A stretch of DNA of 64,000 nt, from positions 3,410,001-3,474,000 of the forward strand of contig NZ_CP109327.1 of NCBI RefSeq assembly GCF_035918155.1, written 5' to 3'. Made by a program: the position numbers and the translations under genes. Below the pieces are notes generated by a model that did not search any database, was not told the DNA's origin, and saw only the letters and a program-made list of their open reading frames with translations. This document shows positions 9,085 through 30,180 of the stretch, one piece after another. This DNA is from Streptomyces sp. NBC_01591. GTDB lineage: Bacteria; Actinomycetota; Actinomycetes; Streptomycetales; Streptomycetaceae. Numbering within the stretch: position 1 is the stretch's first letter; the number at the start of each line of letters is the position of its first letter.

Positions 9085-11508
9085 TCAGTCCCTCAGCAGG
9101 TCCGGGACACCGGCCTCGTCGGGCAGGTCCCGCTCCCCCGAGACCACCGTGAGCTGCTGCGTCGCACGCGTCAACGCCACGTACAGCACCCGCAGGCCGG
9201 CCGGGGACTCGTCCGCGATCTCCGCGGGCGAGACGACCACCGTGGCGTCGTACTCCAGGCCCTTCGCCTCCAGGCTGCCCAGCGCCACCACCCGCTCGCC
9301 GAGCTCGGCCAGCCAGGCGCGGGCCTGCGCCCGGCGGTTCATCGCGACGACCACACCCACCGTGCCGTCGACCTCGGCGAGCAACCGCCGCGCCTCCTCG
9401 CGCACCGAGGCGGCCAGATCGCCGTCCCGTACGGTCTCGAAGCGCGGCTTCACACCCGTGGAGCGGACCGCGGACGGCGACTCCATTCCGGGCATCGCCA
9501 GCGCCAGGATCTTCGAGGCCAGCTCGGCGATCTCCGCCGGGTTGCGGTAGTTGACCGTGAGGGTGAAGCGGCGGCGCGGCCGGCTGCCGAGTGCCTCGTC
9601 GCGCGCGCGGGCGGCCTCGTCCGGATCGGACCAGGAGGACTGCGCCGGGTCCCCGACGATCGTCCAGGTGGCGTGTCTGCCGCGGCGGCCGACCATCCGC
9701 CACTGCATGGGCGTGAGGTCCTGCGCCTCGTCGACGATGACATGCGCGTACTCGGTACGCTCCGCCGCCAGCCGCTCGGCGCGCTCGCGCTGGGTCTCCT
9801 CGCGCTGCGGCATCAGCTCCTCCAGACCGGAGAGCTGGTCCAGCGGGTCGAGTTCGCGCTTCTTCTTCGGCCGGTGCGGTGTGCCCAGCAGCGTCTGCAG
9901 CTCGTCGAGGATGGCCACGTCGTGCACGGACAGCGGCCCGTTCCCCTCGCGGTCGAGCCGCTTCAGGGAGCGGGCGAAGCGGCGCACCTCGCCCTGGTTG
10001 AGGACCCGGCGGGCCCAGCGGCCGAGCCGCTTCTCGTCGGCCATCGCGGCGAGCACTCCGCGCGGGGTGAGCTCGGGCCACCAGGCGTTCAGGAAGTCGA
10101 GGAAGACCGTCTCGGTGGAGACGTCCTCGTCGAAGGAGGAGCGCAGTTCGGCGGCGAGTTCGGGGTCGGTGTAGCGGCCCCGGCCCGAGGACTTGTTCCA
10201 CAGGGCGTCCAGGAGCAGTCTGCGGGCGCGCGGGCGCAGCAGGTTGACCGGGGCGGTGCCGCCGAGGACGGACTGCCGGATGCGGTGCAGCTCGTCGGCG
10301 TTCAGCTCGACGCGGGCGCCGAACGCGACGACCCGCAGCCGGGTGGGGGTGACCAGGGCTCCATCGACTCCGTCGGCCCCGTCTGCACCATCTGCACCAT
10401 CTGCACCATCTGCACCGTCGCCGAAGGACAGCTGGCCGTCCCGGTCCGCCGCCCTGCGGCGGGTGCCGGGCTGCTCCAGCGCGCCGCGGGACGCCTTGCG
10501 CAGCACCTGGAGCATCCGCGAGGAGCCCTTGATCCGGGCGACGCCGGGCTCGTCGTAGGTGGTGGCGCCCTCGACGCCGGCCGCCTCGTCGGAGAGCGAG
10601 CCGACGGCGCGGATCGCGACCTGCCCCTCCTCGCCCAGCGAGGGCAGCACGCCTTCGGTGTACGCGACCAGGAGCGGGGTCGGCGATACGACGAGGATGC
10701 CGCCCGCGTAACGCCGCCGGTCCTGGTAGAGGAGGTACGCGGCACGGTGCAGGGCGACGGCTGTCTTGCCGGTGCCGGGGCCGCCGGAGACCTCGGTGAC
10801 CGAGGCGGCGGGGGCCCTGATCACCAGGTCCTGTTCGGCCTGGATGGAGGAGACGATGTCCCGCATGGTGTGGCTGCGGGCCTGGCCGAGCGCCGCCATC
10901 AGGGCGCCGTCACCGATGACGGGCAGCTTGTCGCCGCCCAGGCACGCGGTCAGCTCGGGGCGCATCAGGTCGTCCTCGACCCCGAGGACCTTGCGGCCCT
11001 TGGAGCGGATGACCCGGCGGCGTACGACCCTGCCGGGTTCCTTCGGCGTCGACCGGTAGAACGGTGCGGCGGCCGGTGCGCGCCAGTCGATGACCAGCGG
11101 CGCGTAGTCGGAGTCGAGGACCCCGATCCGGCCGATGTGCAGCGTCTCCGCGATATCGGCCGACTGGTCGTCGCGGACCGCGTCGTCGGCCGGTTCGACG
11201 GAGGTGTACGCGCCGTCCGGGCCGCGTTCGCCGTCCTTGCCGAGCAGCAGATCGATCCTTCCGAAGAGGAAGTCCTCGAACTCGCTGTTCAGCCGGTTGA
11301 GGTGGATTCCGGCCCGGAACACCTGGGCGTCACGCTCGGCGAGCGCTCCCGGGGTACCGACCTGGCCGCGTTTGACGGCGTCGTTCATGAGAAATTCCGC
11401 CTCGTGGATCTTCTCTTCGAGGCGGTGATAAACACGGTCGAGATGTTCCTGCTCGACACCGATTTCCCGGTCCCGCAACGAATCGACAGCGGCATCCTGC
11501 GCGGCCAC
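9085..11508 (-). CDS. helD: HelD-like UvrD/Rep-family helicase (RNA polymerase recycling factor)
   Basis: 807 residues. The N-terminus (about 8-75) is a charged helical arm like the HelD coiled coil that enters the RNA polymerase secondary channel. Walker A is SGGPGTGKTAVALH (K248), motif II is IVDEAQDLTP, then TIVGDPAQSSW, the NYRNP motif, and late SLEAKGLEYDATVVV and LYVALTRATQQLTVV motifs. Actinobacterial HelD/HelR proteins dislodge stalled or rifampicin-bound RNA polymerase. Odd feature: residues 364-383 are an in-frame acidic DGA repeat encoded by 9-bp repeats with AT-ending codons unusual for this gene. I see no clear rifampicin-associated element upstream, so HelD versus HelR subtype is open. 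Confidence 0.88.
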   Translation of the reverse strand: MAAQDAAVDSLRDREIGVEQEHLDRVYHRLEEKIHEAEFLMNDAVKRGQVGTPGALAERDAQVFRAGIHLNRLNSEFEDFLFGRIDLLLGKDGERGPDGAYTSVEPADDAVRDDQSADIAETLHIGRIGVLDSDYAPLVIDWRAPAAAPFYRSTPKEPGRVVRRRVIRSKGRKVLGVEDDLMRPELTACLGGDKLPVIGDGALMAALGQARSHTMRDIVSSIQAEQDLVIRAPAASVTEVSGGPGTGKTAVALHRAAYLLYQDRRRYAGGILVVSPTPLLVAYTEGVLPSLGEEGQVAIRAVGSLSDEAAGVEGATTYDEPGVARIKGSSRMLQVLRKASRGALEQPGTRRRAADRDGQLSFGDGADGADGADGADGADGVDGALVTPTRLRVVAFGARVELNADELHRIRQSVLGGTAPVNLLRPRARRLLLDALWNKSSGRGRYTDPELAAELRSSFDEDVSTETVFLDFLNAWWPELTPRGVLAAMADEKRLGRWARRVLNQGEVRRFARSLKRLDREGNGPLSVHDVAILDELQTLLGTPHRPKKKRELDPLDQLSGLEELMPQREETQRERAERLAAERTEYAHVIVDEAQDLTPMQWRMVGRRGRHATWTIVGDPAQSSWSDPDEAARARDEALGSRPRRRFTLTVNYRNPAEIAELASKILALAMPGMESPSAVRSTGVKPRFETVRDGDLAASVREEARRLLAEVDGTVGVVVAMNRRAQARAWLAELGERVVALGSLEAKGLEYDATVVVSPAEIADESPAGLRVLYVALTRATQQLTVVSGERDLPDEAGVPDLLRD
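10380..10428. repeat. 9-bp tandem repeat inside the helD-like gene
   Basis: Several copies of GCACCATCT, three to four of them perfect, encode Asp-Gly-Ala triplets in the helicase. The codons GCA, GAT and GGT are rare in the surrounding gene, so the repeat grew by slippage rather than by selection for sequence. Confidence 0.8.
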
Positions 11509-11612: not shown

Positions 11613-13244
11613 TCAGGCATCGACCTCCACCAGCCGCCTGCCGTCGAACGTGCGCACCTCGAAATGGTCGATGTCGCCCCGGTCCATGGCCGCGCCGCCA
11701 TGGACAAGGAGCGGGTATTCCGCTCCCGGGTACGGGGAGTCCTCGATGCCGTACCCCCGCTCCGGCACGGACCAGGAGGTGACGACCTCCTCCTCACCGG
11801 TCTTCGACACCGCGATCAGGCGGCATTTCCGCGGACCCGTGACGTTCCTGAGCTCCAGCACGGTGCTGGTGCCCCAGGGCTTCTCCGCCATGCCGATCGT
11901 GGCGTCGACCCCGGTGGCGGGGTCGGTGGCCCGAACCTTCTCCGAGAAGGCGTCCTCGGCGGGGCCGGTGGGATACGGGCCGGCCACCGGCGTCGACGGG
12001 CCGCCGTCGCCGCTCGCCATGACCGCGGCCACCGGGCCGCCGATGATCAGCGCCGCTGCCGCCGCCACCAGATACATGGAGCGGCGCCTGCGCCGGGCCC
12101 GACCGGCCGCCACCTCGTCGACCAGCCGCTCCAGCACGCGAGGTCCGGGCTGCCCCGGTACGTACCGGACGGCGCGGACGCCGGGTACCGCGGCGGCCGA
12201 GGACTCGGAGAGCAGCGCGAGCACGGGTTCCAGGCCGGCGAACTCGTCGAGCCGGGCGGCGCACGGTTCACAGTCGGCCAGGTGCGCCTCGAAGGCGGAC
12301 GCCTCGGCATCGTCGAGGACCCCGAGGAGGTACGCACCGGCGGCGTCGTGCCCGGAGAGGCCGGAGGGGCCGGAGGCGCCGGAGGGGCCGGAGGCGCCGG
12401 AGGGGCCGGAGGCGCCAGAGGCGCCAGAGGCGCCAGAGGCGCCAGAGGCGCCAGAGGCGCCAGAGGCGCCAGAGGCGCCAGAGGCGCCAGAGGCGCCAGA
12501 GGCGCCAGAGGCGCCAGAGGCGCCAGAGGCGCCAGAGGCGCCAGAGGCGCCAGAGGCGCCAGAGGCGCCAGAGGCGCCAGAGGCGCCAGAGGCGCCAGAG
12601 GCGCCAGAGGCGCCAGAGGCGCCAGAGGCGCCAGAGGCGCCAGAGGCGCCAGAGGCGCCAGAGGCGCCAGAGGCGCCAGAGGCGCCAGAGGCGCCAGAGG
12701 CGCCAGAGGCGCCAGAGGCGCCAGAGGCGCCAGAGGCGCCAGAGGCGCCAGAGGCGCCAGAGGCGCCAGAGGCGCCAGAGGCGCCAGAGGCGCCAGAGGC
12801 GCCAGAGGCGCCAGAGGCGCCAGAGGCGCCAGAGGCGCCAGAGGCGCCAGAGGCGCCAGAGGCGCCAGAGGCGCCAGAGGCGCCAGAGGCGCCAGAGGCG
12901 CCAGAGGCGCCAGAGGCGCCAGAGGCGCCAGAGGCGCCAGAGGCGCCAGAGGCGCCAGAGGCGCCAGAGGCGCCAGAGGCGCCAGAGGCGCCAGAGGCGC
13001 CAGAGGCGCCAGAGGCGCCAGAGGCGCCAGAGGCGCCAGAGGCGCCAGAGGCGCCAGAGGCGCCAGAGGGGCCGGAGGGGCCGGAGGCGCCAGAGGGGCC
13101 GGAGGCGCCAGAGGGGCCGGAGGCGCCAGAGGGGCCGGAGGCGCCAGAGAAGCTGTGTGAGCCACCCGGGCTGCGGGGGCCGCTGAGGCGGGTGGGGTCG
13201 GTCGGCCTGAGTCCGAAGGGCTCCCACTCGTGGTCGTCGTTCAT
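11613..13244 (-). CDS. rsuA: Zinc-finger anti-sigma factor (RsuA type) with giant Gly-Ala-Ser repeat
   Basis: 543 residues. After a 31-residue lead, residues 32-297 are almost entirely Gly-X-Y triplets (Gly-Ala-Ser, some Gly-Pro-Ser). The anti-sigma domain then starts HDAAGAYLLGVLDDAE and has the zinc motif H321-x3-C325-x2-C328. A single membrane helix follows at about 390-411 after an RRRRR stop-transfer run, with an extracytoplasmic C-terminal domain. In the family the zinc domain holds an ECF sigma at the membrane. The start ATG overlaps the sigma stop (ATGA at 13241-13244), so the two are translationally coupled. Synteny suggests RsuA, the anti-sigma of SigU, whose loss blocks aerial growth in S. 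coelicolor. The repeat is far longer than I expect for this protein. Confidence 0.8.
   Translation of the reverse strand: MNDDHEWEPFGLRPTDPTRLSGPRSPGGSHSFSGASGPSGASGPSGASGPSGASGPSGPSGASGASGASGASGASGASGASGASGASGASGASGASGASGASGASGASGASGASGASGASGASGASGASGASGASGASGASGASGASGASGASGASGASGASGASGASGASGASGASGASGASGASGASGASGASGASGASGASGASGASGASGASGASGASGASGASGASGASGASGASGASGASGASGASGASGASGASGASGASGASGASGASGASGPSGASGPSGASGPSGLSGHDAAGAYLLGVLDDAEASAFEAHLADCEPCAARLDEFAGLEPVLALLSESSAAAVPGVRAVRYVPGQPGPRVLERLVDEVAAGRARRRRRSMYLVAAAAALIIGGPVAAVMASGDGGPSTPVAGPYPTGPAEDAFSEKVRATDPATGVDATIGMAEKPWGTSTVLELRNVTGPRKCRLIAVSKTGEEEVVTSWSVPERGYGIEDSPYPGAEYPLLVHGGAAMDRGDIDHFEVRTFDGRRLVEVDA
12357..13149. repeat. Minisatellite: 73 perfect copies of a 9-bp unit with variant flanks
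   Basis: From 12412 to 13068 the unit GCGCCAGAG is repeated 73 times without a single mismatch (657 bp). On both sides are variant units containing GGGGCCGGAG, encoding Gly-Pro-Ser. The array is inside the anti-sigma gene, in frame, and encodes Ser-Gly-Ala with the Ser codon TCT, rare in high-GC actinomycetes. Because the unit is 9 bp, copy-number change keeps the reading frame. All six frames are open across it, which creates long false ORFs. Confidence 0.97.
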
Positions 13245-13852
13245 GCCGTGATCCCCCTCTCCTCCAGTGCCAGCTTCATCGAACGCAGCGCGTAGAAGAC
13301 CCGGGACCGTACCGTCCCGCTCGGGATGCCCAGCACTTCGGCCGCCTCGCCGACCGTGCGGCCCTTGAAGTAGGTCTCGACCAGGGCCTCCCGGTGCGCA
13401 GGGGTCAGATCGTCGAGCGCGTCGGAGAGCGTCATCAGCCACAGCGCCTTGTCCATCTCGTCCTCCGCGGGAACGGCCTCCAGCGGCGAGGCATCGACCT
13501 CGGGCGGCCGGGCCTGCCGGCTGCGGTGGCCGTCGATGACGATGCGCCGGGCGACCGTCACCAGCCAGGGGCGGACCGATCCGGTGGCGCCACCAAGCCG
13601 CCCGGCGTTTTTCCAGGCGCGGATGAGCGTTTCCTGCACCACGTCCTCGGCGCGCTGCCGGTCGCCGGCGACCAGGCGGAGCACGTACGCGAACAGGGGC
13701 CCGGCATGTTCGCGGTAGAGCGCCCGCATCAGCTCCTCGTCCGGGGCGGCGGCGGGCGACGTGTACGGAGACGTGGGCGTGGACGGGGGCGGCTCGCTGC
13801 GATGTCGAGCCCTGTGCGGACGATCATCGGCCACGGCCGCATCCTTGCGCAC
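13241..13852 (-). CDS. sigU: ECF-family RNA polymerase sigma factor (SigU type)
   Basis: 203 residues. Region 2 carries the LYREHAGPLFAYVLRLV helix and the EDVVQETLIRAWKN motif; region 4 carries DLTPAHREALVETYFKGRTVGEAAEVLGIPSGTVRSRVFYAL, a clear helix-turn-helix for -35 recognition. I prefer GTG 13850-13852 to the GTG six bases upstream because AGGAGG sits five bases before it. The N-terminus is a Pro/Ser-rich tail before region 2. It is co-transcribed with the overlapping anti-sigma gene. The sigU name rests on gene order (helicase, anti-sigma, sigma, CGNR, NnaR) and on general similarity, not on an alignment. Confidence 0.85.
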   Translation of the reverse strand: MRKDAAVADDRPHRARHRSEPPPSTPTSPYTSPAAAPDEELMRALYREHAGPLFAYVLRLVAGDRQRAEDVVQETLIRAWKNAGRLGGATGSVRPWLVTVARRIVIDGHRSRQARPPEVDASPLEAVPAEDEMDKALWLMTLSDALDDLTPAHREALVETYFKGRTVGEAAEVLGIPSGTVRSRVFYALRSMKLALEERGITA

Positions 13853-13940
13853 CCGCACCTCCTGGTCGAGACCCTGTGGAGCTCCTCGGTCATCGAATAC
13901 GGGGTCGGCCGCGATCTGTTCAAACCGGCCTCAGGATTCT

Positions 13941-24486: not shown

Positions 24487-25458
24487 TTAGGCGACCGTGC
24501 GGCCGTTCATCAGGCGCGGCAGGATCCGGAAGCCGATGCCTCCGGCGATCATCGTCGCGGCGCCGACCAGCAGGAACGTGGTCTCGGCGGCACCGGTCTC
24601 GGCGAGCTCGTCCTTGCCCTTGCCCTGCTCGACCGGCTGGTTGCCGGCGGAGTCGGGAGTGGTGTTGTCCGCGCACTTCGCGCCGTCGAGGTCGACGGTG
24701 CAGGTGTTGGCGTCGTCGCCGCCGGTGGTGGAGCCGGTGGTGCCGCCGTTACCGGTGGTACCGCCATTGTCCGTGCCACCGTTACCGGAGGTGCCGGAGG
24801 AACCGTTGCCGCCGTTGCCGTTGCCACCGTTGTTGCCGTTGCCGCCGGACTGGTGGCCGCCGTTGCCGTTGCCGCCGTTGTCCTGGCCACCGTTGTCGGT
24901 GCCGGCGTCGGTACCCGCATCGGTACCGGCATCGGTGCCCGCATCGGTACCGGCGTCCGTACCCGCGTCCGTACCGGCGTCGGTCCCGGCGTCCGTGCCC
25001 GCATCGGTACCGGCATCGGTACCGGCATCGGTGCCCGCATCGGTCCCGGCGTCCGTGCCCGCGTCCGTACCGGCATCGGTCCCGGCGTCCGTACCCGCAT
25101 CGGTACCGGCATCGGTGCCCGCATCGGTCCCGGCGTCCGTACCCGCGTCCGTACCGGCATCGGTCCCGGCGTCCGTACCCGCATCGGTACCGGCATCGGT
25201 GCCCGCGTCCGTACCGGCGTCCGTGCCGGCGTCGACGCCGCCGCCCACGTCACCGCCGTTGGACTCGCCCGCGGGAGACTTGATGTCGGCGTCGATCCCC
25301 AGACCGCCCTCGTCGACCTCGGCCTTCGTGGACACAACGCCGAGGTCGACATCGATACCGACCGCCGAAGCCGCACCGGCGGCGGTGAGCGAGGCGCCCG
25401 CGGCGATGACCGCACCTGCGGCGATCCGCGCGACGCGGACTCGCGTCTTCTTCGTCAT
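24487..25458 (-). CDS. Sortase-anchored LAETG surface protein with TDAG repeat
   Basis: 323 residues. A Lys/Arg-rich signal peptide ends at AGAASA. A short domain follows, then about 28 Asp-Ala-Gly-Thr units (about residues 75-187), then a Gly/Asn-rich stretch, then a Cys pair (CTVDLDGAKC). The C-terminus is LAETG (285-289), a hydrophobic helix and an Arg tail, the sorting signal of class E sortases in high-GC Gram positives (LAxTG). So it should be covalently attached to peptidoglycan with the acidic repeat as a stalk. The start has GGGGGTAG upstream. Function unknown. Confidence 0.85.
   Translation of the reverse strand: MTKKTRVRVARIAAGAVIAAGASLTAAGAASAVGIDVDLGVVSTKAEVDEGGLGIDADIKSPAGESNGGDVGGGVDAGTDAGTDAGTDAGTDAGTDAGTDAGTDAGTDAGTDAGTDAGTDAGTDAGTDAGTDAGTDAGTDAGTDAGTDAGTDAGTDAGTDAGTDAGTDAGTDAGTDAGTDAGTDAGTDNGGQDNGGNGNGGHQSGGNGNNGGNGNGGNGSSGTSGNGGTDNGGTTGNGGTTGSTTGGDDANTCTVDLDGAKCADNTTPDSAGNQPVEQGKGKDELAETGAAETTFLLVGAATMIAGGIGFRILPRLMNGRTVA
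24898..25236. repeat. 12-bp tandem repeat encoding Asp-Ala-Gly-Thr
   Basis: About 28 copies of a 12-bp unit of the form G(G/C)(T/C)ACCGGC(A/G)TC, with synonymous variation between copies and higher-order blocks (a longer block containing GCATCGGTCCCGGCGTCCGT recurs several times). Variation is mostly at third positions, so the protein repeat is kept while the DNA drifts. Confidence 0.9.
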
Positions 25459-28488: not shown

Positions 28489-30180
28489 TCAGGGGCCGGT
28501 GTTGCCAGTGCTGCTGCCGCTGTCGCTGCCGCCGCCCAGTTTCGAGATCCAGTCCGTGACGGTGGAGACCGTGTCGCTGATCGCGTCCCAGTAGCTCTTG
28601 CCCTGGCCGATCCAGTCCTGCAACGGGGTCAGTTCCCAGATCAGCCAGCCCGCGACGAACAGCAGCACCAGGGTGAACAGACAGCCCTTGAGGCAGCCGA
28701 GGCCGGGGATCCTCATCGGGTTGGCGCTGCGCTGCCTCGGCTCGCGGGGCTGACGCGGGGCCGGCGGCTGGGGTGCCGGCTGTTGCGGGGGCGCGTACTG
28801 CTGGCGCTGGGGCTGCTGCTGGGGCTGGTGCTGGGGTTGCGGCTGGTACTGCTGCTGCCGGCGCTGGGGGTACTGCTGCTGCGGCTGCTGCTGCGGCTGC
28901 TGGTACTGCTGCGGCGGCTGCCGCCGCTGGGGCTGCTGCTGGGGCTGCTGCTGGGGCTGCTGACGCTGGGGGCGACGGCGCAGCGGGTCCTGGCTCGGGT
29001 CGAGGTACTGGACCTGGGTCTGGTCGTTGCGGTCGCGGGCCGCCTGGAGCTGGGACTGCCAGGGGTGCGGCCCGTCGGGCTGCGGAGGGCCGTCCGGGCG
29101 GGGCGGCACGGGCGGCAGGACCGAGGTCGGGTCGGCGGGCCCGCCCTGGCCCTGGCCGGGGGCGTGCTGCATGACGCTGGTGGCGGCGCTGGGGTCGTAC
29201 GAGCCCGCGTTGCTCGGCAGCACCTGCGTCGGGTCCGCCGCGCCGGGGGTCCCCGGAACGGCCGCGGGCGCCGGATCGGGTGCGAGCAGGGCGCCCACAC
29301 CGTCGGCCGCGGCGATCTGGGCGGAACTGGCGTGCACGCCGATACCGTCCGCGACGACGCGCAGGCCACGGGCCAGGTTCTCGGCGCTGGGCCGCCGGTC
29401 GGGGTCCTTGCTCAGGCAGCGCTCTATGACCGTCCACAGCGGGGCCGGGACGGTGGAGGGGCGGCGGGGCTCCTCGCTGAGGTGCCGGTGCAGCACTTCG
29501 AGAGCGGTGCCGCCGGCGAACGGCGGACGGCCGGTGACCAGCTCGTACAGCAGGATGCCCGCGCCGTAGATGTCGACGGCGGAGGTCTGCGGGCGACCCT
29601 CGGCGGACTCGGGCGCCACATAGGCGGGGGTGCCGACGAACTCGTGGGTCCGGGTGAGCCCCGGGGAGTCGGCCAGGCGCGCGATGCCGAAGTCGGTGAG
29701 CATCGGGTGCATCTGGCCGTCGCGCTCGTCGAGCAGGACGTTGGCGGGCTTCAGGTCGCGGTGGACGACGCCGTCGGCATGGCTGGCGGCGAGCGCGTCC
29801 GCGATCTGCGCGGTGAGCAGCGCGGCGGCGACCGGGGTGAGCGGGCCGTTCTCGCGGAGGTAGCGGTGCAGGTCGGGGCCGTCGACCAGGTCCATGACGA
29901 GGGCGAGGAGGTCGCCCTCGACGACCAGGTCGCGGGTGCGCACGATGTTCTCGTGAGTGAGCCGCAGCAGCACGGAGCGCTCGCGCAGGAACCGCATCAC
30001 GACGTCCGCGTCGTTGGCGAGCTCCTCCTTCAGGACCTTGATCGCCACGGTCTCGCCGGGCTCGCCGGCGACGGCCGCCTCGGCGCCTGCGGTCTCCCGC
30101 TGGCGGGCACGCCAGACGGTGCCCGTGGCGCCGCGTCCCAGCGGCTCCTCCAGGAGGTACTTGCTGCCTACCGGCCGCAC
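28489..30180 (-). CDS. pkaA: Membrane Ser/Thr protein kinase with Gln/Pro-rich linker (PkaA type)
   Basis: 563 residues. Hanks motifs: GRGATGTVW, K48 in VAIKVL, HRDLKPAN (D142), DFG 163-165, APE 189-191. Residues about 270-480 are low complexity, with a Gln/Pro/Arg-rich segment of about 100 residues, and then one membrane helix (GCLFTLVLLFVAGWLIWEL) and a short extracytoplasmic C-terminus rich in Gly/Ser. Length and order fit PkaA of S. coelicolor (543 residues). It lies upstream of pkaB in the same direction and divergent from the FHA gene. Confidence 0.9.
   Translation of the reverse strand: MRPVGSKYLLEEPLGRGATGTVWRARQRETAGAEAAVAGEPGETVAIKVLKEELANDADVVMRFLRERSVLLRLTHENIVRTRDLVVEGDLLALVMDLVDGPDLHRYLRENGPLTPVAAALLTAQIADALAASHADGVVHRDLKPANVLLDERDGQMHPMLTDFGIARLADSPGLTRTHEFVGTPAYVAPESAEGRPQTSAVDIYGAGILLYELVTGRPPFAGGTALEVLHRHLSEEPRRPSTVPAPLWTVIERCLSKDPDRRPSAENLARGLRVVADGIGVHASSAQIAAADGVGALLAPDPAPAAVPGTPGAADPTQVLPSNAGSYDPSAATSVMQHAPGQGQGGPADPTSVLPPVPPRPDGPPQPDGPHPWQSQLQAARDRNDQTQVQYLDPSQDPLRRRPQRQQPQQQPQQQPQRRQPPQQYQQPQQQPQQQYPQRRQQQYQPQPQHQPQQQPQRQQYAPPQQPAPQPPAPRQPREPRQRSANPMRIPGLGCLKGCLFTLVLLFVAGWLIWELTPLQDWIGQGKSYWDAISDTVSTVTDWISKLGGGSDSGSSTGNTGP

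Follow-up and report, generated by a model that had tools for sequence, protein, structure and literature searches.

A perfect 73-copy repeat in a Streptomyces anti-sigma factor gene: probable recent expansion of an old spacer minisatellite

Our analysis concerns a window of 64,000 nucleotides from Streptomyces sp. NBC_01591, in which a predicted anti-sigma factor gene carries 73 identical, in-frame copies of a 9-bp unit. We consider it probable that this array is a recent expansion of an old minisatellite, encoding a flexible spacer in the anti-sigma factor RsuA. The product would be a long, uncharged and probably disordered tether rather than a collagen helix, and we expect its effect to be quantitative or near neutral.

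The gene (11613..13244, minus strand) is intact and encodes 543 amino acids. Its product has a Pfam zf-HC2 match (3.2e-7, above cut-off) and a zinc anti-sigma motif, H-x21-H-x3-C-x2-C, at residues 299-328 (12261..12350, minus strand). This motif lies ahead of a likely transmembrane helix at residues 390-410 (12015..12077, minus strand), identified as the hydropathy maximum on a simple scale. An ECF sigma factor gene (13241..13858, minus strand; 205 amino acids) adjoins, with matches to Pfam Sigma70_r2 (4.9e-16) and Sigma70_r4 (9.9e-13) and, above cut-off, to NCBIfam NF007227 (1.2e-76). These features indicate a membrane-anchored zinc anti-sigma factor (ZAS) of the RsuA type, predicted to bind and inhibit its sigma factor, and agree with an earlier sequence-only reading that had proposed a membrane anti-sigma factor. 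The zf-HC2 match is present in 54 of 54 family members scanned (54 of 78 proteins, being the window's own and 53 of 77 from relatives).

Downstream of the anti-sigma gene are genes for a HelD/HelR-like motor and a malic enzyme. In S. coelicolor, the same order is reported for SCO2951 (malic enzyme; PMC7494193), SCO2952 (HelD; PMC8655204), SCO2953 (rsuA) and SCO2954 (sigU; both PMC2267785). Hence, we take the pair as orthologues of RsuA and SigU, the assignment being by synteny and not by comparison with the S. coelicolor proteins. SigU is described as a negative factor for differentiation and a positive one for protein secretion (PMC6295645), so the proposed tie to a developmental sigma factor holds through synteny. 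Note that the sigma stop and anti-sigma start codons overlap as ATGA (13241..13244, minus strand). This overlap is kept in all 77 of the orthologous loci tested, as GTGA in one, and hence suggests translational coupling. Sequence relatives with known structures are mycobacterial SigL, for the sigma factor (PDB 6dv9 and others; 6dv9_F, E 2.5e-36), and the partner of SigL, presumably RslA, for the anti-sigma factor (PDB 3hug; 3hug_B, E 1.1e-5). The latter match, obtained with a query from which the tract had been removed, spans query residues 7-76, the zinc-domain region alone.

The repeat encodes an SG[A/P] tract of 87 triplets at residues 33-293 (12366..13148, minus strand), with 77 triplets written TCTGGCGCC, eight TCCGGCCCC and two TCCGGCGCC on the coding strand. 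Since the zinc domain precedes the membrane helix, the tract should lie on the cytoplasmic side, in keeping with the sigma-binding side named in the earlier reading. Its place within the protein differs from that proposal, being N-terminal to the zinc domain and not between this domain and the membrane. N-terminal to the tract is a conserved motif, EWEPFGLRP, at residues 6-14 (13203..13229, minus strand). We considered a start codon downstream of the tract, and this was ruled out; among codons 1-302, only codon 1 is ATG, GTG, TTG or CTG. As expected from the earlier reading, the 9-bp unit is in frame within an intact 543-codon ORF, and repeat number alters only length. The array thus has the form of a coding VNTR, with perfect tandem units and a unit length that is a multiple of 3 bp. 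Because steps of 9 bp never break the frame, an on/off switch is unlikely, and the suggestion of phase variation, in that sense, is not borne out.

At the DNA level, positions 12412-13068 of the assembled sequence are exactly 73 copies of GCGCCAGAG, 657 bp with zero mismatches by direct sequence comparison. Period-9 identity is uninterrupted over 661 nt (12409-13069), and Tandem Repeats Finder (TRF) places the whole array at 12352-13149, with 88.7 copies and 97% matches. The claim of 73 perfect in-frame copies is thus confirmed. The architecture given with that claim needs correction at its edges, where the outer copies form 18-bp dimers; period-18 runs are perfect over 57 nt on one side (12360..12416) and 75 nt on the other (13075..13149). 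Three GCGCCAGAG units in tandem are confined to this array, genome-wide (71 overlapping matches, 0 elsewhere). Perfect period-9 arrays of at least three copies number three in 1.6 Mb sampled (0.8 Mb of this genome and 0.4 Mb from each of two relatives), and the longest is 43 nt. The 73-copy array is far above chance expectation. The same sample gave no clear sign of a genome-wide excess of 9-bp arrays, with one per 0.8 Mb here and one per 0.4 Mb in each relative, though these are small counts. Long plus-strand ORFs also span the array, which we judge to result from the repeat together with GC bias.

Long perfect arrays are prone to assembly error. Hence, the real array could be much shorter or longer than the one assembled. 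Three observations argue otherwise. The genome is in 3 contigs and the array is inside one of 8.8 Mb, suggesting a long-read assembly; the graded edges, with their 18-bp dimers, look biological; and the reading frame is intact. We regard an artefact as very unlikely.

The age of the expansion can be gauged from synonymous positions. Across the 73 core units there are 219 fourfold degenerate positions, with 0 differences. Between the window and Streptomyces sp. ADI95-17, among the closest relatives, fourfold sites differ at 19 of 119 in sigU, 20 of 136 in rsuA (tract excluded), and 49 of 503 in helD. Codon choice is also skewed. The gene has 77 TCT codons, all inside the tract. Across a sample of 285 ORFs from this genome, no ORF has more than five TCT, and the rate is 1.06 per 1000 codons; note that a GC3 of 0.85 or more was the condition for picking these ORFs, so that their TCT count is lowered and the contrast favoured. 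The five neighbouring ORFs have two TCT among 107 serine codons, and the spacers of relatives four among 260. A rare codon repeated throughout the tract suggests that a single DNA unit was copied, rather than that selection acted on the protein sequence. The large array is in this genome alone, among orthologues examined. We conclude that the expansion is recent, as had been supposed, given the identical units, the TCT load and the fourfold divergence of flanking genes.

The spacer itself is older. In one Streptomyces clade, RsuA has a common layout, with the motif [E/Q]WxPFGxRP, a spacer of Gly, Pro and Ser, and the zinc anti-sigma domain. In the form [E/Q/D]W-x-P-[F/W]-G, the motif is present in the window and 28 relatives; Trp, the first Pro and Gly are invariant across these 29 sequences, and Phe and Arg are each kept in 28. 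Three of 32 matches to the pattern (L082, L090 and L095) were left out, their N-termini being Gly-rich but different. Motif codons for Pro, Gly and Arg differ synonymously among relatives, and hence the motif is maintained at the protein level.

Segment length, from the start codon to the zinc domain, is 298 amino acids here versus 38-91 (median 64) in 27 motif-bearing relatives. In 49 relatives lacking the motif it is 4-41. Both counts come from a genome scan that found 110 related stretches and retained the 80 best, a step that could omit records very close to the window; length was measured for 76 of the 80, three being cut by a contig end and one (L111) having unread bases in the gene. A wider genome set yielded 38 distinct motif-bearing segments, of 31-91 amino acids. 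No motif-bearing relative measured has an N-terminal segment above 91 amino acids. In two of the closest relatives of the window, the segment is 43 amino acids (Streptomyces sp. ADI95-17) and 52 (S. atratus OK807, L042). A protein search with the part downstream of the tract as query matched 363 of 392 Streptomyces genomes (E of at most 0.001, paralogues included). Among the places listed in that search, only the window has an open frame above 502 amino acids (736 amino acids); hence, 502 is an upper bound on other N-terminal segments there. Note that the genome collections hold one genome per species, and length differences are therefore between species.

The short spacers of relatives are also periodic. 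Pooled over 27 species, nucleotide self-identity is in excess at lags 9 and 18 (z 15.2 and 21.2), and amino acid self-identity at lags 3, 6 and 9 (z 13.7, 21.3 and 9.5), with other lags tested below expectation; related species are treated as independent in these tests and in those of length class below, and the figures overstate that independence. The lag-9 signal is found in each of two subgroups (z 9.9 in 13 HDAAG species, z 11.9 in 14 HDAAA species) and in the five nearest relatives pooled (z 7.1, with z 6.3 at lag 18). Singly, 24 of 27 relatives have z above 2 at lag 9 or 18. Lengths follow a similar pattern in part. Of the 17 distinct segments in the HDAAA subclade, 16 belong to a single mod-3 length class, as steps of 9 bp would give; the lengths in this class are 40, 64, 67, 70, 73, 76, 82 and 91, and the exception is 81. 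The HDAAG group, which includes the nearest relatives of the window, has no such class (9, 7 and 5 of 21), and indels there are thus not exclusively 9-bp steps. We also compared 138 pairs with similar zinc domains and unequal lengths; in 90 of them, the length difference in residues is divisible by three. Such short periodic spacers, of varied length, argue that an old minisatellite spacer has here undergone an extreme and recent expansion. The anti-sigma gene spacers of two loci (L028 and L073) contain other three-residue repeats (DLP in L028 and LSG in L073).

Expansion could have been assisted by folding of the unit. The GGCGCC within it is self-complementary, and a strand can fold into one long hairpin. 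For 20 copies as a single hairpin, the predicted energy is -145.4 kcal/mol as RNA (z -18.5), and -80.4 and -82.6 for the two strands as DNA (z -15). Hence, a hairpin is a plausible aid to slippage. Note that a TCG variant of the unit folds better than the TCT unit that was amplified. A general GGCGCC slippage hotspot was considered and ruled out; rows of at least five GGCGCC 9-mer units occur in this and seven other Streptomyces genomes out of 392, versus 21 of 392 for a reversed control pattern. With such arrays uncommon, the hairpin alone is insufficient to explain the expansion. There are 69 overlapping matches here and at most three in each of the other seven genomes. In another Streptomyces genome (L138, G357:C1:106437-106496), GGCGCCAGA is interspersed with GGCGCCAGT over about seven units.

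With glycine at each third residue, the tract invites comparison with collagen. One possibility is that it forms a collagen-like triple helix, so trimerising the anti-sigma factor. The glycine pattern continues for a run of 89, and the protein matches Pfam Collagen (6.7e-37, above cut-off). Furthermore, for recombinant bacterial collagens longer than 150 residues, stability is reported to be less dependent on sequence (PMC7824840), and the tract has 261 residues. However, these comprise 87 Ser, 87 Gly, 79 Ala and just eight Pro (3%), with no charged residue, so that few X or Y residues are of the kind expected to stabilise a triple helix without hydroxyproline. Replacement of proline or hydroxyproline often reduces the stability of collagen (PMC7824840), and bacterial collagen appears to offset the absence of hydroxyproline through electrostatic interactions (PMC4066190). 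Nor is the pattern conserved in orthologues. The Pfam Collagen match occurs in one of 54 members scanned, that of the window, and the longest run of glycine at every third residue exceeds shuffled sequences, at the 5% level, in just three of 27 relatives' spacers. No further trimerising domain was detected by Pfam. We conclude that the tract is probably not collagen. Trimerisation by a triple helix is extremely unlikely, and the collagen-like function first proposed is not upheld.

Tandem repeats that do encode collagen are known from the Bacillus exosporium, namely Bams13 in bclA, and Bams30, with nine-base units in the Bams30 type as here; these repeats are reported to be among the most polymorphic of their species (PMC1479350). 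Those proteins are exosporium components whereas RsuA is a regulator, with 3% Pro in its tract and no collagen match in the orthologues scanned. By titles and the opening lines of abstracts, our literature search found no description of a collagen-like tract in an anti-sigma factor. Even if neutral, the array shows that a Pfam Collagen match can arise from a copied DNA unit.

We favour expansion of a spacer minisatellite, which would have proceeded as follows. In this clade, a minisatellite would long have encoded a flexible spacer between the N-terminal motif and the zinc domain of RsuA. Slippage or unequal recombination, acting on the 9-bp GGCGCC unit, may then have multiplied one unit to 73. 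The resulting Ser-Gly-Ala tether, long, uncharged and probably disordered, would leave the zinc domain with a lower effective concentration of the motif. In parallel, rare codons and a folded messenger could make RsuA synthesis slower and costlier relative to SigU. Both effects would give a somewhat looser brake and more free SigU, or be near neutral.

In a stronger form of the second effect, translation of rsuA would be cut by its 77 TCT codons and by the strong folding of its messenger, both within the first 880 nt, with a rise in free SigU as the result. The TCT count, against at most five in any of the 285 ORFs, is consistent with this, as is the overlap of sigU and rsuA with the coupling that it suggests. 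Similarly, 180-nt RNA windows have folding energies of -146.6 kcal/mol within the tract versus -68.6 to -102.6 outside the tract and its edges. Conversely, TCT is presumably decoded by the TCC tRNA, and the folding figures ignore translating ribosomes. Such an expression brake is possible but doubtful. The array is also a ready-made case in which to study the influence of rare codons and mRNA folding on an anti-sigma factor encoded in overlap with its sigma gene.

Alternatively, the array may be a selected tuner. A fast-changing length could set the balance between SigU and RsuA, and development or secretion would then vary among colonies of a single strain. The unit is in frame, segment length varies among species (in one subclade consistent with 9-bp steps), and the conserved motif is retained at the spacer's N-terminal end. 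There is also a precedent; the number of in-frame repeats within E. coli tolA is reported to change both protein and phenotype (PMC3477136). The tolA case concerns another protein and another unit, and there a phenotype was shown. The expansion is, moreover, found in a single genome. We think a selected tuner unlikely, if only slightly more so than the brake on expression.

A more specific version concerns the motif. Here, [E/Q]WxPFGxRP would sit on a minisatellite tether that lengthens or shortens mostly by 9 bp at a time, and tether length would set how far the motif helps in sigma capture or anti-sigma turnover. Repeat number would then act as a dial for development and secretion that can evolve, possibly within a colony, and that is set to an extreme in this strain. 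This is speculative, and we rate it below the general tuner. In-frame repeat dials are known from envelope and surface proteins (tolA and bclA). If the idea were true, a length-plastic spacer on the sigma-binding side of a transcription regulator would allow a developmental programme to be adjusted by repeat number, with the gene unbroken. Among the matches listed, and by title and start of abstract, this locus is absent from the literature on Streptomyces tandem repeats; neither sigU nor rsuA occurs in PMC4255298.

Other repeats are present in the window. The neighbouring helD-like gene has a second, small and perfect 9-bp array (10382..10416, minus strand; TRF and period-9 scan). This encodes (Asp-Gly-Ala)n with codons GAT, GGT and GCA, within a variable stretch. 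The run was not seen in the seven relatives, of 16 tried, where the helD site was located, and short D/G/A-rich stretches are found at that site in L042 and L045. Two 9-bp arrays within 2 kb, versus roughly one per 0.4-0.8 Mb sampled, is a curious arrangement, noticed post hoc. Elsewhere, TRF identified a period-84 repeat at 24895-25234 (four copies, 88% matches), a stretch for which periods of 24 and 36 bp were also reported, and an imperfect repeat of the GCTGGG/GCTGCT type at 28798-28969, with periods from 6 to 33.
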